From contig JADLEK010000044.1 in assembly GCA_020846135.1 (NCBI GenBank), forward strand, positions 62,001 through 126,000: a DNA stretch of 64,000 nucleotides, written 5' to 3'. A model generated the notes under the pieces. That model searched no databases and was not told where the DNA came from. It saw only the letters and a list, made by a program, of their open reading frames with translations. Of this stretch, positions 39,189-55,356 are shown piece after piece. How positions within the stretch are numbered: position 1 is the stretch's first letter; each line of letters starts with the position of its first letter. This DNA comes from Gammaproteobacteria bacterium (GTDB taxonomy: Bacteria; Pseudomonadota; Gammaproteobacteria; Competibacterales; Competibacteraceae). A program made the position numbers and the translations under genes.

Positions 39189-40349
39189 ATGGCCAACACC
39201 CTGACCAACCTTATCCCCGACATTTACGCCGCCCTGGACGTGGTCAGCCGCGAACTGGTCGGGTTCATCCCCGCCGTCGCCCGCGACCCCAGCGCGGATC
39301 GGGTGGCGCTGAACCAGACCCTCCGCGTTCCGATTTCGCCCGCCAACGCCGCCGGCCTCGACATCACCCCGGCCATGGCTCTGCCCGCGGCCGCGAATCA
39401 GACCATCGGCAACGCCGGGATTACGATCAGCAAGAGCCGGGCCTTCCCGTTCAGTTGGACCGGCGAAGAGCAGCGCGCGGTCAGTGCCGGCCCCGGCTTT
39501 TTGACCCTCAAACAGGGCCAGATCGCCCAGGCGATTCGCGCGGTGGTGAACGAGATGGAGCTGGACATTGCCACCGCCGCCTACCAGGGCGCGAGCCGCG
39601 CCATCGGCGCAACCGCCGGAACGGCTCCGGTCTTGGCCGACTGGGCGGGCGCGAAGAAGATTCTGGACGACAACGGCGCGCCGATCTCCGACCGCACCAC
39701 CGTGATCAACACTACGGCAGGCGTCGCGTTGCGCTCCACCGCCAATCTGTACAAGGTGAACGAGGCCGGCGAAAACGGCCTGTTGCGCAACGGGACGCTC
39801 GGCAACCTGTACGGCTTCGATCTCCGTGAATCCGCGCAAGTGCAGACCGTCAACGCCGGAACCATGGCCAGCGCCACCACGACCGCCGCCGTGCTGGCCG
39901 TCGGCCAGACCGTGTTGCCCTTGGCGACCGCCGGGACCGGGGTCGTAGCGGCGGGCGACATCATCACCCTGGCCAACGACACCCATAAATATGTGGTCGC
40001 GTCGGTCTCGTTTGCCGGCGCTAACCCGGCCTCCGGGGATTCGATCACGATCGCCGCGCCCGGCCTGCGCCTGGCCCAGGCGTCGGCCACCCGCGCCATC
40101 ACCGTCTTTGCCACCAGCACCCGCAACTGCGCCTTGACCCGCAACGCGATCCTGCTGGCGACCCGGCTCCCGGCGATTCCCACCGAGGGCGATCTCGCCA
40201 CCGACCGGATGACCATTACCGACCCGACCTCCGGGATTTCCCTGGAGGTCGCGGCCTATCCCGGCTTTCGGATGATCACTTATCACGTCTCCGTCGCCTG
40301 GGGCGTCAAGGTCATCAAGCCCGAACACCTGGCGATCATCATCGGCTAA
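39189..40349 (+). CDS. major capsid protein, P22 coat-like
   Basis: 386 residues. N-terminal MANTLTNLIPDIYAALDVVSRELVGFIPAV and the ANLYKVNEAGENGLLRNGTLGNLYGFDLRES region fit the P22 gp5 family rather than the Mu gpT family. A beta-rich insertion lies at residues about 230-300. Hence the capsid operon is mosaic: Mu-like protease and connector with a P22-like coat. Confidence 0.8.
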   Translation: MANTLTNLIPDIYAALDVVSRELVGFIPAVARDPSADRVALNQTLRVPISPANAAGLDITPAMALPAAANQTIGNAGITISKSRAFPFSWTGEEQRAVSAGPGFLTLKQGQIAQAIRAVVNEMELDIATAAYQGASRAIGATAGTAPVLADWAGAKKILDDNGAPISDRTTVINTTAGVALRSTANLYKVNEAGENGLLRNGTLGNLYGFDLRESAQVQTVNAGTMASATTTAAVLAVGQTVLPLATAGTGVVAAGDIITLANDTHKYVVASVSFAGANPASGDSITIAAPGLRLAQASATRAITVFATSTRNCALTRNAILLATRLPAIPTEGDLATDRMTITDPTSGISLEVAAYPGFRMITYHVSVAWGVKVIKPEHLAIIIG

Positions 40350-40370
40350 CCCCGAAAACGCCGACGCCCT

Positions 40371-40487
40371 ATGGAAGCTAACGGCTCTGAAACGATGATC
40401 AAGTGGGCGCTGATCGCTGCCGTAGCGATGACCTTCATCGTGCGCCTGCCCGACATCATTACCGCCTTGGCGCTGGCCCTGAAATGA
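40371..40487 (+). CDS. 38-residue membrane peptide
   Basis: ATG 40371 to TGA 40487; one hydrophobic helix (WALIAAVAMTFIVRLPDIITALALAL). Its stop overlaps the next start by ATGA. Not recognised; phage small membrane proteins at this place are common. Confidence 0.5.
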   Translation: MEANGSETMIKWALIAAVAMTFIVRLPDIITALALALK

Positions 40488-40903
40488 CCTACGCCACTCA
40501 AGCCGACATCGAAGCCCGCTATCCGGGCGAACTGACCCAGGCCGGGCCGAAAGACTCGACCGGGGCGCTGGATGAAGAGGCGGTTGCGGTGGCCCTGAGC
40601 GCTGCCGACGACCCGATTGACGGGGCGTTGCGGACCATCGGCTGGACCGTCCCGCTCACCGCCCCGGTCCCCGCCTGGGTGAAGAACCTGGCGGTCGATA
40701 TGGCCCTGTATCTGGCCACCCCGACCGTTCTCGCCAGTCAGGACGATTTCAAGGATCGGCGGGTCCGTTATGACACCGCGCTCAAGACCCTGGCCGACAT
40801 CGCCGCCGGGCGGCTGATCCCGCCCCCGCTGACCGACGTCGCCAGCTCCTCCGGCGTCTTCGTCACCAGCGCCCCCCGCCAGTTTGGCCGAGGCGTCCTG
40901 TGA
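40484..40903 (+). CDS. phage gp36-like protein (DUF1320)
   Basis: 139 residues from ATG 40484 (MTYATQADIEARYPGEL), the start set by coupling to the preceding peptide. DUF1320 pattern: ALSAADDPIDGALRTIGWTVPL...VPAWVKNLAVDMALYLA, ending near RRVRYDTALKTLADIAAGR. Neck/connector protein by analogy with Mu. Confidence 0.85.
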   Translation: MTYATQADIEARYPGELTQAGPKDSTGALDEEAVAVALSAADDPIDGALRTIGWTVPLTAPVPAWVKNLAVDMALYLATPTVLASQDDFKDRRVRYDTALKTLADIAAGRLIPPPLTDVASSSGVFVTSAPRQFGRGVL

Positions 40904-41349
40904 GCCTAGCCGCCCTGACCGGAGCCATCGTCACCACCCTGAGTTCACGCCTGACCCCGGTCCGCGTGAAAGAACACGGCGGTTCCTTCACCGAGCGCGA
41001 GCTGGCCCTGCTGCTCGGGGAGGCGCCCTGTCTGCTGGTCTCACCGATCGGTCTGGCCGACTTTGGGCCCAACCACAACCTGAACGGCTGGCAGGCCACC
41101 GCCCGCTTCACCGTCTATTGCCTCAGCACTGACGCCAACGGCCACCGCGCCGATGCCGCCAAGGATCAGGCCCAAGCGGTGCTCAATCTGCTGCTGGAAG
41201 ACCAGGACTGGGGACTGCCGACCCAGTGCGATGTTCCGGTACTGACCAGCCTGCGCGCTGAAAACCTCTATTCCGGCAAAATCAACGTCCTGAGCGTCGC
41301 CCTGTGGGCGGTGTCCTGGGATCAACTGTTCATCTTCACCACCCCTTAA
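40900..41349 (+). CDS. phage gp37-like protein (DUF1834)
   Basis: 149 residues from a GTG overlapping the previous stop. Family-like layout LTGAIVTTLSSRL at the N-terminus, a central CLLVSPIGLADFG and C-terminal SGKINVLSVALWAVSW. Probable tail-terminator/connector role, inferred from Mu gene order. Confidence 0.75.
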   Translation: MSLAALTGAIVTTLSSRLTPVRVKEHGGSFTERELALLLGEAPCLLVSPIGLADFGPNHNLNGWQATARFTVYCLSTDANGHRADAAKDQAQAVLNLLLEDQDWGLPTQCDVPVLTSLRAENLYSGKINVLSVALWAVSWDQLFIFTTP

Positions 41350-41361
41350 GGATGTCCCGCC

Positions 41362-42333
41362 ATGGCTATCGCCTCCACCACCACCCAACGCCTGGTCGCC
41401 GCCGGCAAGGTCTACTGGGATCAATTCAATGCCGCCGGGGTCAAAACCGGCGAACGCTACCTCGGCCTGACCCCCGGCTTTACCGTCTCGGTCAAGAGCG
41501 ACACGATTGAAAGCTACAGCGCCGAGACCGGCGTTCGCCAGCTCGATGATCGGACCCTGATTTCAGTGACCCGCACCGGCACACTCAGCGTCCGCCAGGT
41601 CAGCCTGGAAAATCTGGCGCTGTTTGTCGGCGGCTCGGCCATCACCGCCGCCCAGACCAGCGGCGCGGTCAGCAACGAAGCGGTCAGCGTCCTGGCCGAT
41701 CGCTACTACCAGCTCGGCGCGACGGTCGCCAACCCGTCCGGGGTGCGCAACGTCACCAGCATCACCGCGACCGCCGCCACCCCGACCAGTTGGGCCGCCA
41801 CCACCGCCAAGGCGCTCGGGGCACAGGTCCAACAACTGTCCAGCCCGACCCACGTCTTTCAATGCACCACCGCCGGCACCACCGGCGGCACCGCCCCCAC
41901 CTGGGTGACCACCCTCGGCGGCACCACCACCGACGGCACCGTCACCTGGACCTGCATCGGCATCATCACCCCGGTCCTCGGCACCGACTACACCGTCGAT
42001 CAAACCGCCGGGCGGGTCTACATCCTGCCCACCGCCCGGGCCAGCGCCACCTATCCGGTCCCCTGGCTGTTCGGCTACACCAAAACCACCGTCTCCCGCG
42101 ACCAGATCAGCACCGCCGGGCTGCCCTCGGCCTACGGCGCATTGCGCTACCTCGCCGCCAACGCCAAGGGCGCGAACCGCGACCTGTACGGCTGCAACGT
42201 CATGCTGGCCCCCACCGGCGACTGGATTCTGAGCGCCGACGATCCCAAATACGTCGAGCTGGAATTTGAAGTCAGCTTCAGCCTCGGCGCCAATGGCGAA
42301 CCGGCCTTGATGATCGACGGCCAGGCGTATTAA
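41362..42333 (+). CDS. phage tail tube-like protein with inserted Thr/Gly-rich module
   Basis: 323 residues. The ends resemble tail-tube folds (LGLTPGFTVSVKSDTIESYSAE; YVELEFEVSFSLGANGEPALMIDGQ). An inserted segment, about residues 160-200, with the PTWVTTLGGTTTDGTVTWTC pattern is a widespread phage-protein module. Strong C/A skew in this gene gives long false frames on other strands. Precedes the tape-measure gene as expected. Confidence 0.7.
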   Translation: MAIASTTTQRLVAAGKVYWDQFNAAGVKTGERYLGLTPGFTVSVKSDTIESYSAETGVRQLDDRTLISVTRTGTLSVRQVSLENLALFVGGSAITAAQTSGAVSNEAVSVLADRYYQLGATVANPSGVRNVTSITATAATPTSWAATTAKALGAQVQQLSSPTHVFQCTTAGTTGGTAPTWVTTLGGTTTDGTVTWTCIGIITPVLGTDYTVDQTAGRVYILPTARASATYPVPWLFGYTKTTVSRDQISTAGLPSAYGALRYLAANAKGANRDLYGCNVMLAPTGDWILSADDPKYVELEFEVSFSLGANGEPALMIDGQAY

Positions 42334-42339
42334 CCGCCC

Positions 42340-42450
42340 TGAGTCGCTGCGTAGCCTGGATGCAGGCCGTCAGGCCGTAATTCGGGGCTGCTGGCGGGAT
42401 ATGAGCGATCCCGGATTCCGCTACGCTTCATCCGGGCTACGCGACTACGC
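42340..42450. repeat. REP-like element (GCGTAGCCTGGATG ... CATCCGGGCTACGC)
   Basis: Inverted arms near 42350-42362 and 42429-42441 differ by one base. The right part, CCCGGATTCCGCTACGCTTC, is itself a hairpin-type unit seen widely between gammaproteobacterial genes. Fills the gap between the tail-tube and tape-measure genes. Confidence 0.65.
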
Positions 42451-42494
42451 GGCTGATGGCCCGGTTTTCCTGTTGAGCTTCACCGAGGTAACGC

Positions 42495-45400
42495 ATGGCT
42501 GACCGCAATCTCGTTTTGCAACTGCTGATCACCGCCAAGGATCAGGCGAGCGGCGTTTTCAGCAAGCTGTTCTCGTCGCTCAATGACGGCACCAATGTCA
42601 TTGCCGGCAAAGTCCGCGACGGGTTTTCCAACCTGTTTGGCGGAGCCGTAGACAGCGCCGCGGCGTTTGAGCAGCAACTGGGCAAGGTCCAGGCCAAGGG
42701 CGATGAGACTTATCAGGACACTGCCGAACTGAAGAAGGGCTTGCAGACCCTGGCCGCGCAATTCGGGATTACCGGGACGGAAGCGGCGCAAGGGATGGAA
42801 GTGCTGGCGGCGGCGAGCTTGAATGCGACCGACGCGATGAAGGCCCTGCCCGCGGTGCTGAATCTGGCCAAGATGGAAAATCTCAGCCTGGATGATGCGG
42901 CCACCAAGCTGAGCGACACCCTCTCGATCATGGGGATGGAGTTCAGCCAGGCCGGCACGATGGCGGATGTTCTGGCCAAGGGCGCGAATATCAGCACCGC
43001 CTCCGCCGCCAGCCTGGCCGAGGCGTTGTCGGTCGCGGGCGGGCAAGCCAAGAGCGCCGGGATGGATTTACAAGCCACCGTCGCCGCTCTCGACCTGCTG
43101 CACAGCGCCGGGATTAAAGGCAGCGCGGCAGGAACGTCGCTCTCGGCGATTCTGACCCAGTTGCAGAACCCGGCCAGCGCCGCCAGCAAGGAACTGAACA
43201 AGCTGGGGATTAACAGTCGCGATTTGGGCGACGTGCTGGATGGACTAAAGGCCGCTGGCGGCAAATCGGGCGCGGCGATTCTGGCCTTTGGTGAAACCGC
43301 CGGCCCCGGTTTGCAGGCCATGGTCAGCAAAGGCGCGGCGGGCCTGAAGGACTATGACACCCAGCTCCGCAAGGCCGGCGGCTCCGCCGCGGAGGCCGCA
43401 GACAAGCTCGATCAAAACTTCAACAGCGCTCTGAGCCGCCTCGCCGCCGCCTGGGACAGCATCAAAGCCGCTCTCGCCGAGCCGATCCTCAAACCCATCG
43501 CTGACGGGGCGCGGGAAGTCGCCAAGACTCTGAATGAGGCGCTGATCAGCGGGGCGCTGAAGCCGGCGCAAGCGGCGATCAAGACCTTTGCGACGGAAGG
43601 CATCGCGGCGATCCGGGACTTCGTTAAGAACTTCGATTTTCAGCAAGCGATCAAGGCCGCTGGTGACTTTTTAACCAGCGCCAAGACCTCGTTTGAGGAG
43701 ATTAAAACCGCCGGCAATACCGCCGCCGATGGGGTCACCATCGCCTGGAATGCGGTCACTGCCGGGTTTAAGACCATCGGCGCGGCGCTGTTGGCGATAG
43801 CCAGCCAGACCGTCAGCGCCTTGGCGGCCACGGAAGAAGCCGCCAGCAAGGTCGGCATGGGCAGCCTGGAACGCGCCAATGAACTGCGCCAGACCGCCAG
43901 CGCCCTGGCAGCCACCGCGGCGGAACTGGTGCAGTCGGTGGCGCAAGACAGCGTGGAAATGGGCGCGGCATACGACCGGATGACCGGCAAGACCGGCGAA
44001 GCGCAAGCCGCGCAGGAACGGCTTAAGACCGCGTTTCCGACCAATGAAATTCAGACTCTCAGTTACACCCTCGCGGACTATCAGACGATAGCGGATCGGG
44101 CCAATGCGGCCACGGAAGCGGCGCGGATCGCCCACGAAGCCGGCAAGATCACGGCCCAGGAGTACGGGGTCAAGCTGCTGGAAGCGGCGGACGCCAATCA
44201 GGCGCTGAACGTAGCGACCTTGGAACAAGCGGCAGGCGCTGCCGCGCAACAGGCGCAAGCCGACAAGGTCACCCTGGCGACCGCGGAACTGACCGGCAAG
44301 CTGGCCAACTGGAGCCGCGAGATCAAGTACGCCAATGAGATGGCGGACAAGTGGCAGTCCGGGATGGCGCTGAACGAGGTCAAGATGCTCGGCCTGCGCG
44401 ATGCAGCGCAAGCGACCGCGGAAAAGCTGGCCTATCTCACCTCGGTGAAAGCCACCTTGCCGGATGCGGATAAGAAAATCGCCGCCGCCACGGCGGAAAA
44501 CAAGGCCGCGCTGGATCGCTACAACACCGCGCTGGGCGAACACATCACCCAGTTGGAGGCCAAGCAAGCCGCGGTCGAACGCGCGAACGGCATCGAGCAA
44601 AAAGGCTATGACCTGCTGATTCAGCAAGCCAGGGCAGAGGAGGAGCTGGCGACCCTCAAGGGCGATACCGAGGCTGCAACCCGCGCCCAAACCGACGCGA
44701 CCGATCTGCAAAATGAGAAAGCGGCAGCGGCGATTGCCCAGAAAAACCAAGAGATTGCGGTTTATAAAGACCTGATTGCCGCGACCAAAGAGAAGCTGGC
44801 GGCGGATGGGACGCTGGATCAAGCCGACCAGGCGCACCTGGCGACGATGGCCGACACCCTGACCGCGATGGGCCAGGAACGCGACAGCATGGCCCAGAGC
44901 CTGCAAGCGACCAAGGATCTGACCGAGGCCAAGAGGCAGAAAAAAGAAGCCGACGAAGCGGCGGCTAAGGCGGCGAAAGAAGCGGCGGAGGCGGAGAAGG
45001 AAGCGCTGGCCCAACTCGCCGCCGCGGGCGATGCGGTCAACTCCAACATGACTGCGGTGAATCAAGCGTTCGTTGAAACTGGTGGCAATATGGAAAAGCT
45101 GACCTCCGCTTTCAATGAGATGCGCACCAGTACGGTCAATGGCCTCTCCGCCGATCCGTGGATTGCCTGGTCAGCGTCGGTCGCCGCCAACGCCGATAAG
45201 GTTGTGCAATCCTACAACAATCAAAAATCCGCCCTGGATAACAGTGTCGCCACTCTGCAACGCTTCGCCGATGAAGGCGGGAACGTCGCTGAGATTCAGC
45301 GGATCATGGCGCAAGGCAGCGGGAATCTGGCGAACCAGTACAGCCTGCTGGATGAACAGGACTTGTCGAAGCTGCGCAGCGCAATGGACAGTGCCAATGA

Positions 45401-45854
45401 CAAGCTGCGCGAAATGCAGCAGGAAGCGCAAGACGCGCAAACCGCGCTCGCTGAATTGAATGCTGAGATTCTGGCCGAGCAGGGCAATACCGCCGCCGCC
45501 GATAAGTTGAAGCTGCAAATCAGTCAGACCAGTGCGCTGACGGAATTGGAACGCAAATTAGCCGAGGCGCGGGGGATAGGCAACAAGGAACTGATCGCTA
45601 TTTATCAACAGCAGATCAACAAGACCAATGAGCTGTATGCACTCAAGAATCGCAACCTTGACGCGGAAATTGCCGGCAACGACAAGACCACCAAGACCAA
45701 TCAGGCGGCCATTACATCGGCCAATGCATTGACCTCTGCAATGAAGCAATCCGCTGAAGCGGTGAAAATTCTGAATGGAGCCGATCTCAGTGGTCTGGTG
45801 GAAAGCTCCGGGCAAGCGCTGAACAACTTTAAAGCCATCAAGGGGTTAATGTAA
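42495..45854 (+). CDS. phage tail tape measure protein
   Basis: 1119 residues, mostly Ala/Lys/Glu-rich coiled coil. The N-terminal core is TP901-type (ALPAVLNLAKMENLSLDDAATKLSDTLSIMGMEF, SLAEALSVAGGQAKSAGMDL, LDLLHSAGIKGSAAGTSLSAIL). Length sets the tail. It lacks an obvious C-terminal peptidase or hydrophobic belt end, and the next gene begins on its last base, so the original protein may have been longer. Confidence 0.9.
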   Translation: MADRNLVLQLLITAKDQASGVFSKLFSSLNDGTNVIAGKVRDGFSNLFGGAVDSAAAFEQQLGKVQAKGDETYQDTAELKKGLQTLAAQFGITGTEAAQGMEVLAAASLNATDAMKALPAVLNLAKMENLSLDDAATKLSDTLSIMGMEFSQAGTMADVLAKGANISTASAASLAEALSVAGGQAKSAGMDLQATVAALDLLHSAGIKGSAAGTSLSAILTQLQNPASAASKELNKLGINSRDLGDVLDGLKAAGGKSGAAILAFGETAGPGLQAMVSKGAAGLKDYDTQLRKAGGSAAEAADKLDQNFNSALSRLAAAWDSIKAALAEPILKPIADGAREVAKTLNEALISGALKPAQAAIKTFATEGIAAIRDFVKNFDFQQAIKAAGDFLTSAKTSFEEIKTAGNTAADGVTIAWNAVTAGFKTIGAALLAIASQTVSALAATEEAASKVGMGSLERANELRQTASALAATAAELVQSVAQDSVEMGAAYDRMTGKTGEAQAAQERLKTAFPTNEIQTLSYTLADYQTIADRANAATEAARIAHEAGKITAQEYGVKLLEAADANQALNVATLEQAAGAAAQQAQADKVTLATAELTGKLANWSREIKYANEMADKWQSGMALNEVKMLGLRDAAQATAEKLAYLTSVKATLPDADKKIAAATAENKAALDRYNTALGEHITQLEAKQAAVERANGIEQKGYDLLIQQARAEEELATLKGDTEAATRAQTDATDLQNEKAAAAIAQKNQEIAVYKDLIAATKEKLAADGTLDQADQAHLATMADTLTAMGQERDSMAQSLQATKDLTEAKRQKKEADEAAAKAAKEAAEAEKEALAQLAAAGDAVNSNMTAVNQAFVETGGNMEKLTSAFNEMRTSTVNGLSADPWIAWSASVAANADKVVQSYNNQKSALDNSVATLQRFADEGGNVAEIQRIMAQGSGNLANQYSLLDEQDLSKLRSAMDSANDKLREMQQEAQDAQTALAELNAEILAEQGNTAAADKLKLQISQTSALTELERKLAEARGIGNKELIAIYQQQINKTNELYALKNRNLDAEIAGNDKTTKTNQAAITSANALTSAMKQSAEAVKILNGADLSGLVESSGQALNNFKAIKGLM

Positions 45855-46771
45855 TGGGACTGCTGGATGATTTTGCAAAACTCAATACAGAGATTAATTC
45901 TTACGCGAAGGCGATGGACAAAGCCTATGCGGCAGCCGTCAAGCAGTTGCAGGTGACGGATGAACTTGAGAAAAAATCCAGGTCTGCGGCGCTGGCGATG
46001 GCCGAATCCGCGACGAAAGCGGAGGCTGCGGCGGCGAAAATGGCGGAAGTTTCCAAAAGCACAGCAATGAGTGCGTATGATTTACAAAAAGCAGGACAAT
46101 CTGCCGGCAGTAATAGCTACAACCCTTATAACGCAAGCAGATATCTTGATAGTAAATACATTGCTAATCAAGTATTGGGCGGAATGAAATCATCATCGTT
46201 TTCTTTTGTTGATAGCAACGAGGCAAAATTAACCGGATTAACGGACGAATTGATTGATTCTAATGAATCCGTAAAGCAGGCATACAAGGCTTTTGCAAAC
46301 TTCAAGCTGGATATTGGTGATAAAGGCAGACTTTATTACGACATGCAGGTTAAATATGAAAGTATGAAAAAAGAAGGGTATGACAAAACGACTATAGACG
46401 GAACTATAAAAATAATGAATGAACAGCTCACCAAATTAAGGGGCGAATATGATAGCCGTCTGAACGCACTCAAAGGCACTGTCGATGCAGCATTAAAGCC
46501 GGAACGGGACGCCTTGGCGGCAGACTGGCGCAGTGCAGTCACCGAGTTCGCTCAAAAGGTGGGTACCAACGACATTCAGGGAACTACTCAGACGGATGAT
46601 TTAAGGCTGGAAGCCCTCGCCAAGAAACTCGTGGAGGCCATAATGAGTGGCGCGAATGCCAAGACCTACACCATTCAACTGAATGGCAATGACATTCGGA
46701 CGATTGACGATCCGACTGATTTGATCAAGCTGATTGAAGAACTGTCGAAGGCGAAGCGGTTGGCGGGGTAG
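45854..46771 (+). CDS. hypothetical phage protein downstream of the tape measure
   Basis: 305 residues, starting 1 bp within the tape-measure stop. N-terminal coiled coil (about 1-90), a Ser/Asn/Tyr-rich middle and a C-terminal YTIQLNGNDIRTIDDPTDLIKLIEEL that resembles the end of some tail tape-measure proteins. DNA at about 46100-46450 is clearly more AT-rich than the rest of the window, a sign of separate acquisition. It may be the split C-terminal piece of the tape measure. Confidence 0.6.
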   Translation: MGLLDDFAKLNTEINSYAKAMDKAYAAAVKQLQVTDELEKKSRSAALAMAESATKAEAAAAKMAEVSKSTAMSAYDLQKAGQSAGSNSYNPYNASRYLDSKYIANQVLGGMKSSSFSFVDSNEAKLTGLTDELIDSNESVKQAYKAFANFKLDIGDKGRLYYDMQVKYESMKKEGYDKTTIDGTIKIMNEQLTKLRGEYDSRLNALKGTVDAALKPERDALAADWRSAVTEFAQKVGTNDIQGTTQTDDLRLEALAKKLVEAIMSGANAKTYTIQLNGNDIRTIDDPTDLIKLIEELSKAKRLAG

Positions 46772-50175: not shown

Positions 50176-50640
50176 ATGAAAGGCGACGCCCAAGTCATCG
50201 AGTACCTGAACAAGGCGCTCAAGAACGAACTGACTTCCATCAACCAGTATTTTCTCCATGCCCGCATCCTGGAAAACTGGGGATTCGCCAAACTCGGCCA
50301 GCACGAGTACGACGAGTCGATTGACGAGATGAAACACGCCGACCGGCTGACCCAGCGGATTCTGGCGCTGGAGGGTCTGCCCAATCTGCAAGACCTGGGC
50401 AAGCTGTACATCGGGCAGAATGTGGAAGAAATCCTGCGCGGCGACCTCAAGCTCGAACTGACCGCGCACCCGCTCTACAAGGAAGCGGTCGGGTATTGCG
50501 AAAGTTGCGGCGACTATGCGACCCGCGATCTGCTGGCCGCCATTCTCGCCAGCGAGGAAGAACACATCGGCTGGCTGGAAATGCAGTTGGGGCTGATTCA
50601 GCATCTGGGCCTGCCGGGCTATTTGCAAGCTCAGTTGTAA
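50176..50640 (+). CDS. bfr: bacterioferritin
   Basis: 24-mer iron storage protein, 154 residues. Heme ligand Met52 and ferroxidase residues E18, E51, H54 are in place ([15 protein letters not shown]), with the C-terminal EEEHIGWLE supplying the other ligands. Its last 10 bases overlap the 3' end of the convergent histidine kinase gene. Confidence 0.96.
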
Positions 50641-51995
50641 GTTCGAGCCACCGGCAGCCGGAGCGCAAACACCGCGCCGTGCGGGACTTGATCGCGCACG
50701 GTGATCTCGCCGCCATGCAGACGGGCGATGGTGCGAACGATGGACAAGCCAAGTCCGCTGCCGGGTCCAGCATCCCGCCGATAGAACCGCTCAAAAATCG
50801 CCGCCTTTTCCCCATCGGGCACCCCCGGACCGTAATCGGCTACCGTGATTTCAAGATCGGATTCGGCCAGCCGCAGGCGGATTTCAGGCGGCCGGCGATC
50901 CGGGCTTTGGCGCAACGCATTGTCGATCAGGTTGTGCAGGGCAATCGTTAGCAGTTCCGGGTCAACATCCAGATAGAGTTCCTGATCCAGCACTTGCCAG
51001 CGGATCCGGGCTGGGTAATGGTCGGCTGCCTGGCCGACTACGGCGTTGATGCCAACCTCCTGTAGGGCCAGACCGAAACGCAGGTCACGCAAGCGATCCT
51101 GGGTAATCAGGGCATTAGCGAGATGGATCAGGCGCTGGGTGGCTTGACGCATATTGTCCAGCCGGGTCGCTACCGCTGGCTGGATGTCGTCGGCGAGATA
51201 TTTTAGGGAGTCGAGCGACGCCTGAATCATGGCGGCCGGAGTGCGGAATTCGTGCGAGGCCAGCGACAGCAACTGACGCTGTTCGGCTTCAGCCTGTTCG
51301 ACATCAGCCAGAGCGGTGCGCAGGTTGCGATCATCGCTCTGCTTGGCAAGCAGCAGAAAACCATAGCCATTGATAATGGTGATCAGGTAGCCCGCCACCC
51401 ATAACGTCAGGTTGGGGCCTTGGTAGCCGAGGTGCGCGATGTCGTTGATCCAGAACAAAGGGACCGACCGGGCGATGAAGATCGCGCCCATGATGGCGTT
51501 GGTGACGCCCATCAACCGCAGCAGCGGGCCGTTGGACCGTTGGGTCAGTAGCAGGACCGTCATAGCGGTAAAGAAAGCGCCGTTGATCCATGAGAAATAG
51601 ATCAGATCGATCCGGCGCGATAAGCCCAGACCATGCAGAGTCAACTGCGCGATCAGCGCCAGTCCGGTCAGGATCAGCAGGGGCATTTGCCAGCCGCGCC
51701 GGCGCAGCAGGCTGGCGTAAGCGGCGCATTCCAATGACCAGCCGACGATCAGCAGCAGATGAGAAACGGTCAGGGACAGCCAGAGTGGAATGACCGGCCG
51801 CAGCCAGATTAGCAGGAAGGCGCTGCCGCTGATGACCCGCGCCCAGCGCCAGATCAACAGTGGCTGATCGGTCGTTTTGACCGACCAGGTATAAACCGTG
51901 ACCAGCGCGGCAAAGGCCAGATTGCCGAGACCCGCCGCTAGCGATAGAGTAGGAATATCAATCAATTGCTCACCTTTTCCCGGTTCTTGCGCCAT
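50631..51995 (-). CDS. membrane sensor histidine kinase
   Basis: 454 residues: about seven N-terminal hydrophobic helices (residues 15-215) without a large periplasmic loop, then HisKA with H248 in [12 protein letters not shown], and HATPase_c with HNLIDNAL (N box), DYGPGVP (G1) and GSGLGLSIV (G2). The signal may be membrane-embedded. Pairs with the divergent response regulator: the two ATGs share one CATG at 51993-51996. Confidence 0.92.
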
Positions 51996-52707
51996 GTCGG
52001 ATTGTAGCGTTGCTTATACCGTTTCCATCGTCGAGGATGAAGCTGTCCTGCGCGATGAACTGGCGTTTCAGCTCGAATGCCTGGGGTTTACAGTCGAGAA
52101 GTTCGCCAGCGCTGAACAGTTTTACCGTTACCTGGCGGTGCAGTCGCAAACGGTGGTGGTGCTGGATATTGGTCTGACCGGCGAGGATGGTTTATCGGTC
52201 TGCCAGCATCTGCGGGGGCATAACCTCAACATTGGCATTGTCTTCATCACCGCGCGGAGTTTGCGGAGCGATCGCCTGGCGGGTCTTGATGCCGGCGCGG
52301 ACGCCTACCTGGTCAAGCCCCTTGATGTGGATGAGCTGGCGCTGATTCTCAAACGTCTGGGGCAACGCTTCAGCGCCGCCGCGATCCCGATGCCGCCGCA
52401 TCCGGCTCCCCACGGGCAATGGCATTTTACGGAGGGTTCCACCTGGCTCGTTGCGCCGAATCAGGCCCGGATTCGCCTGTCCGTCCGCGAATATCAGTTA
52501 CTGAACGCGCTGTTGCAGCGTTTGGGCGAACCGTGCCGCCATGCCGAACTGGCGCTCGCACTGGGCTTGCTCCCGGAGGAATATAACCGGCACCGGGTCG
52601 AGGTCATTCTCAGTCGGTTACGCGAGAGAATCTACCGCTGTAGCGGGCTACATCTGCCCATTCAGGCCGAGAGAAATGTCGGTTATCTCATTGTGCCGGG
52701 ACTTTAA
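51994..52707 (+). CDS. response regulator, REC plus winged-helix (OmpR-like)
   Basis: 237 residues from ATG 51994; the frame from 51898 would run antisense to the kinase. REC: acidic E14-D15, phosphoacceptor D58, T86, K108 in YLVKPLD. C-terminal DNA-binding domain with SVREYQLLNALLQRLGEPC and HRVEVILSRLRERI. No Shine-Dalgarno is seen for this or the kinase gene. Two secreted-protein genes follow on the same strand after 144 bp; regulation of these is an inference. Confidence 0.88.
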   Translation: MSDCSVAYTVSIVEDEAVLRDELAFQLECLGFTVEKFASAEQFYRYLAVQSQTVVVLDIGLTGEDGLSVCQHLRGHNLNIGIVFITARSLRSDRLAGLDAGADAYLVKPLDVDELALILKRLGQRFSAAAIPMPPHPAPHGQWHFTEGSTWLVAPNQARIRLSVREYQLLNALLQRLGEPCRHAELALALGLLPEEYNRHRVEVILSRLRERIYRCSGLHLPIQAERNVGYLIVPGL

Positions 52708-52851: not shown

Positions 52852-53763
52852 ATGCTCTACCCCAATCCCCTCAATCTGGCCCAGCGGAGTGTTCTGCCGT
52901 TGGCGCTGCTCTGCGCCTTGAGCGGCCAGAGCGCGACCGCCGCCACCGCCGGTATGTGTCACTACATGACCAATACGGCAATCCAGAATGTCACCGGGCA
53001 CAACCTGCAATATACCAACCTAGCCCTGTCCGATAACTTCGGCATCCACCCCAATTTCCCCATCACCTGGATTCTTGCCACGGGCGGCGTGACCGGGTTT
53101 ACCCAAACCTGGGGGTCGTCCAACGGCACGACCGGCGGGCAACTCACCTTCCAGATTCAGGATGGTCAGGCCAATCCGCAGTTCATCCTGGATTACTCGA
53201 GTGGAGTGAGCGCCAATCCCGCCACCGTCGCCGACGCGGCAGCGACTGGCGCCCAGGAAGTCACGCAAGAAACGCTTAAAGATGCCGGGGAAGATGCCGG
53301 GGAAGATGCAGCGGAAGATGCTGAAGTGCCGCCGCCCGCCGATGCGGTTTTGGCTGCGGTTCAGGTTTTGAAGGCCGTGTTTAAAATCGCGTCCAAGATC
53401 ATTAGCGCTTTCAGCGCGGAAGGCTACCTCAATGTCAACCCGCCGTCTGGCGTCACCTTTCCAACCGTGGCCAACCTCACGGTAGATTCCTCCCAGACCA
53501 ATACAGTGGTGGTCCCCGGTTCAGGCAGCACCCCCGAGGAGCAAAACCTCAACGGTTATGTAGTATCGGCCATCGGGATTAACAATGGGTGCATCAACTC
53601 CTGGAACGTAGTTGTCGCCCCTTACTGTGCCTATGTTTGCGGTTATGCCTCAGCCAATAATACCCCTGTTGCCGATGCCAACTGTGCGAGTACCACCTAC
53701 TGTTCATCGCCGGCTAGTGCGTCGACTAACCCCTTGTTTGCTAAAACCTTGGCTGCCCAATAA
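52852..53763 (+). CDS. hypothetical secreted protein
   Basis: 303 residues after a perfect AGGAGG site. Signal peptide about 1-31 (LPLALLCALSGQSATAA). Mature part: a beta-rich region (SWGSSNGT-type Gly/Ser/Thr, TFQIQDGQANPQFILDYSSG) that faintly recalls aegerolysin-like folds. It is followed by an acidic helix with repeated DAGEDAGEDAAEDAE, a hydrophobic stretch VLAAVQVLKAVFKIASKIIS, and a Cys-rich end (CINSW, YCAYVCGYA, CASTTYCSS). Not assigned to a family. Confidence 0.65.
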   Translation: MLYPNPLNLAQRSVLPLALLCALSGQSATAATAGMCHYMTNTAIQNVTGHNLQYTNLALSDNFGIHPNFPITWILATGGVTGFTQTWGSSNGTTGGQLTFQIQDGQANPQFILDYSSGVSANPATVADAAATGAQEVTQETLKDAGEDAGEDAAEDAEVPPPADAVLAAVQVLKAVFKIASKIISAFSAEGYLNVNPPSGVTFPTVANLTVDSSQTNTVVVPGSGSTPEEQNLNGYVVSAIGINNGCINSWNVVVAPYCAYVCGYASANNTPVADANCASTTYCSSPASASTNPLFAKTLAAQ

Positions 53764-53774
53764 AGGATTTTTCC

Positions 53775-55250
53775 ATGAAACTCCATCCATTCGTATTTAC
53801 TCCAAACCGCATAGCACTGTTATTGCTGGGTGTGCTGGGCAGTCAGTCTGCGTTAGCGATTACTATTCCGGGAAACGCACAATGCTATTCTAACAATGGC
53901 GGCTACGGCTACGATGCCTATATCGCTAACAATTCGGCATTCGGCGAGTTACAGGCTGTTTACGCCTACAACAACGGGAGTGCCTATTACGAAACCGGCA
54001 CCGGAACATTTGCCACGACTCCTCCGGCGAGTGTAAACACGCTCAATAACGGTACCTTTTGTTATAGCGATAAGTCAAGTTATGAGGGGAACTATCTGGC
54101 CTATTCGGTGGGATCGAGTTCCTACGCTTTCAACCTGCAATTCTGGGGTGACGATCAAGGGCCATCGTTTTATTTAAACCTTAACTCCATCAATAATTCG
54201 GTTTGGACCACCAGTGGCGTTTGCCCCGGAGAGACGAACTGGGCGGCGGCGATCTCGGCAAACAACACCAGCACCACCACTCAGACCATCTGCAATGAGG
54301 ATTACGTCCTCAACATCGCTACTGCGAATACCGGTGGCAGCGATAATGGCGCGACCTTGACGATTACCGACAATCCGGCGGGCAACGCCAGTGGCTCGCA
54401 GTCGAGTTCGTCCGTGGCTACGGCAAGCGCCCAGTCAAGATCCATGATGGCCAGTGCGGAAAATTATGGGGTGGCCAGCCGCATCTTCAAAAAAACCCGC
54501 TGGTCCTTGATTCGTGACCCGGCGACGCAGAATCTCAGCGGGATGATTTACGCGAAAGACGGTCGGCAATTTGGCAGCTTTGTCCACTGCACGCTCGTCA
54601 GTGATAACGGGAATGCCGATCCGGTTCAACACCAATCAACCTATAACTGCGCTACTACCGATCCTTGCACTTCGGGACAATGCGGCGAAACCTGGCAAGG
54701 AATGACGGAGGCGGTGATTTTGCCGGGGACTTTCTTTGATCGCCCCCCGACCAATAACCCCAAAGTCAAGCTGTTGACCCCGCCGGTTGGGGGCGATGCT
54801 GATATTCGCAAATCGTTGGAGTTATTACCCACGGTCACCGAGCGAAGAATCCATCAGACCCCGGATGGCAAGGTGAAGGTTCTCAGCGTCAATCTGCTCA
54901 AACAGGAATGGCTGCTGGCTTATGACGGCCAGCATCTATTCGCCGCAGTCCCGCATAACCAGATGGGCCAGCCCCGGTTCGTGCAGTGCAACCAAACCGC
55001 TGAGACTGAGCGAGAGGTGAAGATGGACTGCCTGGAGGCCTATCGCTGCCATTTTGGCCCCTGCACCGATGACCAGTGGAGTCCGGTGGCGTCGATTACG
55101 TTGCCTAAAAGCCTGTTGAGTTTACCGGTGACCCCGACCAGCAGTGGCGGCGGTGGTTGCGTATTAACGCCGAATACGCCATTCGATCCGCTGTTTCCCG
55201 CATTAAGCATCGGCGCACTCTGGTATTTGGGTCGCCGCCGGCGGCAGTAA
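53775..55250 (+). CDS. hypothetical secreted protein with C-terminal sorting signal
   Basis: 491 residues, starting 11 bp after the previous gene. Signal peptide about 1-28 (IALLLLGVLGSQSALA). N-terminal half is Asn/Ser/Tyr/Gly-rich beta structure with several cysteines; the middle is Ser-rich; a second domain (about 235-440) has paired cysteines. The C-terminus is SSGGGGC, an LFPALSIGALWYL helix and RRRR, the layout of CTERM-type (GlyGly/JDVT-like) surface-sorting tails. AT content is higher than in neighbouring genes. Likely partner of the preceding gene. Confidence 0.7.
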   Translation: MKLHPFVFTPNRIALLLLGVLGSQSALAITIPGNAQCYSNNGGYGYDAYIANNSAFGELQAVYAYNNGSAYYETGTGTFATTPPASVNTLNNGTFCYSDKSSYEGNYLAYSVGSSSYAFNLQFWGDDQGPSFYLNLNSINNSVWTTSGVCPGETNWAAAISANNTSTTTQTICNEDYVLNIATANTGGSDNGATLTITDNPAGNASGSQSSSSVATASAQSRSMMASAENYGVASRIFKKTRWSLIRDPATQNLSGMIYAKDGRQFGSFVHCTLVSDNGNADPVQHQSTYNCATTDPCTSGQCGETWQGMTEAVILPGTFFDRPPTNNPKVKLLTPPVGGDADIRKSLELLPTVTERRIHQTPDGKVKVLSVNLLKQEWLLAYDGQHLFAAVPHNQMGQPRFVQCNQTAETEREVKMDCLEAYRCHFGPCTDDQWSPVASITLPKSLLSLPVTPTSSGGGGCVLTPNTPFDPLFPALSIGALWYLGRRRRQ

Positions 55251-55280: not shown

Positions 55281-55356
55281 TCCGTCATTCCCGCGAAAGC
55301 GGGTATCCAGTTTTTCAGCGGCTGCCTGGATTCCCGCATTCGCGGGAATGACGAAA
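55281..55356. repeat. pair of inverted REP-like units (GTCATTCCCGCGAAAGCGGG family)
   Basis: Unit 1 at 55282-55310 and inverted unit 2 at 55325-55353, separated by a 14-base spacer. A further partial unit lies to about 55390. Same family as 32107-32138. Confidence 0.8.

Follow-up and report, generated by a model that had tools for sequence, protein, structure and literature searches.

A Competibacteraceae exported protein with a JDVT-CTERM tail and an MrtJ protease encoded on another contig

Two adjacent genes for exported-type proteins

The stretch of DNA analyzed here (64,000 nucleotides; hereafter, the window) lies on contig C44 of a 3.7 Mb genome in 83 contigs (G000). Its host belongs to the Competibacteraceae (Gammaproteobacteria), a family of wastewater bacteria, and comparisons were made with 39 genomes of the family, 369 genomes of the class and 14 control genomes. 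As the first-pass annotation had reported, two exported-type genes sit side by side on the forward strand, P1 (52852–53763; 303 aa) and P2 (53775–55250; 491 aa), the second starting 11 bases after the stop codon of the first. That annotation also placed a divergent kinase/regulator pair next door, and Pfam identified both genes: a membrane sensor histidine kinase on the reverse strand (50631–51995; HATPase_c over its cut-off, HisKA below) and an OmpR-type response regulator on the forward strand (51994–52707; Response_reg and Trans_reg_C). The window also contains capsid-like, tail and tape-measure-like phage genes recognized by eye (39189–46771; probably a prophage), and a palindromic repeat, CATTCCCGCGAAAGCGGG, follows P2 at 55286–55350, with three copies in the window vs 0.03 expected.

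P1 is an exported protein of unknown fold whose gene is preceded by a Shine-Dalgarno-like AGGAGG. The signal-like start, acidic DAGED repeat and Cys-rich end previously described for it were all recovered: a signal-peptide-like hydrophobic stretch at residues 13–32, the repeat DAGEDAGEDAAEDAE at 53281–53325 on the forward strand (read directly), and five of the seven Cys within the last 57 residues. Neither Pfam nor NCBIfam matched the whole protein at E ≤ 1, and the bodies of P1 and P2 had no match above cut-off when the whole proteins were compared with Pfam and NCBIfam and their pieces with Pfam. Among both the 39 genomes of the family and the 369 of the class, P1 was detected in its own genome only. 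Searches of viral contigs and plasmids with P1 and P2 returned no relatives, and a PDB sequence search with P1, P2 and the internal repeat of P2 gave matches at chance level only. Structure prediction, proposed earlier for both proteins, did yield models, of a quality too poor to interpret (mean pLDDT of 38.7 for P1 and 38.8 for P2, the latter too low to assign a fold). P1 bears no sorting tail and would therefore be freely exported, and we infer that it is probably a co-transcribed partner of P2.

The P2 body is rich in cysteines and internally duplicated

The N-terminus of P2 has a hydrophobic stretch at about residues 11–33, with ALA before residue 29, as read from the sequence. Its body includes two copies of an internal Cys repeat of ~85 residues, at 54465–54815 and 54825–55130 on the forward strand. 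Taken alone, the window protein gives a weak duplication signal (score 40, reached by 9 of 1000 shuffles), and the signal is clear in the full-length P2 of another family genome, G030 (score 71, 0 of 1000 shuffles). Comparisons across copies scored 56 and 64, each reached by none of 1000 shuffles, and a Trp, four Cys and an LP pair are kept in all five repeat copies. The two full-length P2 proteins are 62–64% identical and share all 12 body Cys as well as Cys462 near the C-terminus, so that Cys462 would be the odd one left to carry a lipid.

Two of the 39 family genomes encode the P2 body (G000 and G030), and a third, G028, matched the P2 search through the tail alone. In the 369-genome class sample the body was found in its own genome only, G030 being absent from the matches there, and in the genome collection it was found only on two contigs of the MAG CPB_C95.

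P2 ends in a JDVT-CTERM sorting signal

The last residues of P2 comprise SSGGGGC (residues 456–462; Cys462 codon at 55158–55160), a DP motif, a hydrophobic segment and RRRR (residues 487–490). The first-pass annotation had taken this arrangement for a sorting signal, and the NCBIfam model JDVT-CTERM (NF033191) matched it at 47.6 bits against a cut-off of 27 (E = 1.2e-12). The match spans residues 457–491 of 491, i.e., the extreme C-terminus (55140–55247, forward strand). Given this E value, and given that none of the 14 control genomes had a JDVT-CTERM match at E ≤ 0.001, the P2 tail is not a chance match. A genome-wide search of G000 revealed three tails over the cut-off, namely P2 on C44 (53.1 bits, the highest) and one each on C30 and C64 (46.1 and 44.7 bits for these two), plus two further matches far below the cut-off.

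The layout of a glycine-rich motif, a hydrophobic helix and a basic end is also that of GlyGly-CTERM proteins, which would make P2 a rhombosortase substrate. We regard this as highly improbable, because no NCBIfam model besides JDVT-CTERM matched P2 at E ≤ 1, GlyGly-CTERM included, and because Rhomboid (PF01694), a model that could miss a divergent rhombosortase, had no match in G000 at E ≤ 0.001 vs 14 of 14 positive control genomes. Of the two kinds of sorting protease suggested earlier for this genome, a rhombosortase was thus not indicated, and a glutamic intramembrane protease, MrtJ, was found.

An intact MrtJ is encoded on another contig

MrtJ (NF033192) is intact and over its cut-off on C30 (94.2–95.4 bits vs 75), where its gene directly follows the C30 JDVT-CTERM gene. 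The protein also matches the Rce1-like family PF02517 (62 bits). Its motifs EELAFR and HGFYN agree with EExxxR and HxxxN, which PMC11980579 describes for MrtX. As P2 and the C30 mrtJ each lie >37 kb from the ends of their own contigs, they are not neighbors. A second mrtJ copy on C64 (L018, 7387–7916) is split between frames beside an intact JDVT-CTERM gene, and the split is either real decay or an assembly error; unless it is the latter, a single intact MrtJ serves G000. Two gspD-type (type II) secretin matches over the cut-off were also detected in this genome, and these may come from other secretin systems.

The distance between P2 and mrtJ, together with the split second copy, could also mean that the sorting signal of P2 has decayed or goes unused, P2 being a simple membrane-anchored protein left away from its protease. 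This is improbable, since P2 has the best-scoring of the three G000 tails and an intact MrtJ remains.

A P2-type gene adjoins mrtJ in a relative

In addition to its full-length P2, G030 encodes a truncated P2 with an intact tail (137 aa), which is followed by mrtJ after 9 bases. This arrangement ties P2-type genes to MrtJ without relying on the tail match. Upstream of the full-length G030 P2 lies the end of a different protein (66 aa; L021, 5–205), where the contig ends. That fragment had no Pfam match at E ≤ 1, and its best PDB match was a cyanovirin-N domain protein (E = 0.071), so a lectin-like nature of the cyanovirin-N type is a lead only.

The other JDVT-CTERM cargos examined are proteins of ~760–790 aa (L017, 4774–7062; L018, 7843–10125; L019, 985–3360), in which HExxH motifs were seen by eye (HEVGH, HEIGH and HEMGH, respectively). 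The L017 and L018 cargos weakly resemble choice-of-anchor X proteins, and the L017 cargo also has a weak match to calcium-activated chloride channel (CLCA) proteins. In G000, each of the two JDVT/mrtJ pairs is preceded by a lipoprotein-like gene, encoding 601 aa on C64 (L018, 10137–11942) and only 170 aa on C30 (L017, 3917–4429).

A four-gene system is not supported by conservation

The regulator, P1 and P2 share a strand, with P1 starting 144 bases past the regulator, and on this basis the kinase, regulator, P1 and P2 could together make up a dedicated, sensor-controlled surface or matrix system, position being the sole support for control. The C64 JDVT-CTERM gene and its broken mrtJ likewise adjoin a kinase/regulator pair. 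Several results argue against such a system. P1 has no counterpart elsewhere in the 39 family and 369 class genomes; the P2 body occurs in two of the 39 family genomes, and the gene upstream of it in G030 differs. The conserved co-occurrence of the four genes that the first-pass annotation had looked to was therefore not seen. The C30 and G028 JDVT/mrtJ loci had no kinase/regulator pair in the stretches read. A relationship between the window pair and the pair beside the C64 mrtJ was considered and rejected, as the ~32% identity of the two regulators and the two kinases is ordinary background for these families.

The likely start codons of the divergent kinase and regulator overlap as CATG (51993–51996), and, if both starts are correctly assigned, each promoter would sit within the neighboring gene. 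The interval separating P1 from the regulator had no sigma-70-like site, and promoter-like sites were not above chance. We conclude that the four-gene system is not supported by conservation, and its existence appears doubtful; the kinase and regulator are retained as candidate members only. As context only, PMC12019908 reports that PEP-CTERM proteins of other wastewater bacteria are linked to flocs.

JDVT-CTERM tails and MrtJ co-occur and are mostly unlinked

JDVT-CTERM and MrtJ matches over the cut-off were found in the same 3 of the 39 family genomes. In the class sample, JDVT-CTERM was over its cut-off in 41 genomes and MrtJ in 52, with both in 39, leaving 2 of the 41 without an over-cut-off MrtJ and 13 of the 52 without an over-cut-off tail. 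Three of these 13 (G041, G221 and G241) have weaker JDVT-CTERM matches. The hypergeometric value for the co-occurrence is 6e-39, a figure that ignores relatedness and the curation of both models. Nor is the co-occurrence a fully independent line of evidence, as the curators who set the MrtJ cut-off presumably knew of the JDVT-CTERM pairing.

Up to 20 candidates were scored per genome, and the tail counts in the class sample are accordingly lower bounds. At least 70 tails were over the cut-off; of those listed, 17 had an over-cut-off mrtJ no more than 5 kb away and 53 had none at that distance, the C64 gene of G000 being counted as unlinked because its mrtJ is below the cut-off. More than one tail was present in 13 of the 41 JDVT-CTERM genomes, among the matches listed. 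Fragmented assemblies can hide linkage; in the genomes with tails that consist of one contig (G057, G117 and G321), 9 of 10 tails were unlinked, again among the matches listed. Of these genomes, G321 has a completeness of 72%, and its mrtJ match is interrupted by a stop codon. Tails were read at 31 loci (L036–L066), and in 27 a Cys and a DP-type motif were accompanied by a hydrophobic stretch and basic residues; of the other four, three had no tail by the pattern used and one (L066) was doubtful.

With 53 of 70 listed tails unlinked, sorting in trans looks common, beyond the two-gene picture in print, and the two-gene mrtJ neighborhood is better taken as typical than as defining. On balance we lean toward JDVT-CTERM/MrtJ being a general gammaproteobacterial pathway that handles multiple cargos in trans, in which unrelated, lineage-specific cargos such as P2 acquire the tail and P1 is a co-exported partner. 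If MrtJ acts on more than one or two unlinked substrates within a genome, as suggested here, JDVT-CTERM would provide a searchable list of gammaproteobacterial surface proteins.

Proposed sorting of P2 and comparison with known systems

Taken together, P2 is very probably a disulfide-rich protein that is exported to the cell surface and sorted through the JDVT-CTERM/MrtJ pathway by a protease whose gene lies elsewhere. P2 would be exported by Sec through its N-terminal signal, and its C-terminal helix would hold it in the inner membrane and leave RRRR on the inside. A lipid would then be attached to Cys462, the C30 MrtJ would cleave after this residue, and type II secretion may carry P2 across the outer membrane for display on the cell surface. 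It is thus most likely a MrtJ substrate, with cleavage in trans and Cys462 as its anchor. This mechanism is proposed by analogy with MYXO-CTERM/MrtX, for which conserved-Cys-dependent cleavage, surface anchoring and type II secretion are experimental findings in PMC11980579. The literature searched contained no experiment on any JDVT-CTERM protein, and a search for surface sorting or CTERM proteins gave nothing on Competibacter. With this assignment, an exported protein that had no annotation gains a place in a defined surface-sorting pathway, and direct predictions follow, i.e., which Cys and which protease.

The proposed route shares its tail layout and surface destination with GlyGly-CTERM/rhombosortase, and differs in that the protease of that system is a serine rhomboid, a family without a Rhomboid match in G000. 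The likeness to MYXO-CTERM/MrtX is broader, comprising the invariant Cys, the helix, the Arg-rich end, a CPBP protease and surface anchoring (here proposed), whereas the tail family and the protease subfamily are different, and the MrtX model reached 43.1 bits on the C30 protease vs a cut-off of 180. The suggestion in the first-pass annotation that the system was undescribed did not hold, as JDVT-CTERM/MrtJ is in NCBIfam (NF033191 and NF033192) and, in the introduction of PMC11980579, appears as one JDVT protein beside MrtJ in a gammaproteobacterial host. The P2 tail and MrtJ exceed the cut-offs of these models, also in a gammaproteobacterial host; unlike the published pair, three JDVT-CTERM proteins here share one intact MrtJ, with P2 on another contig. 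What is new is the cargo body of P2 together with its neighbor P1, and the locus combines a sorting system already known with a cargo that is new and lineage-specific and whose internally duplicated, 12-Cys body is found in two genomes.
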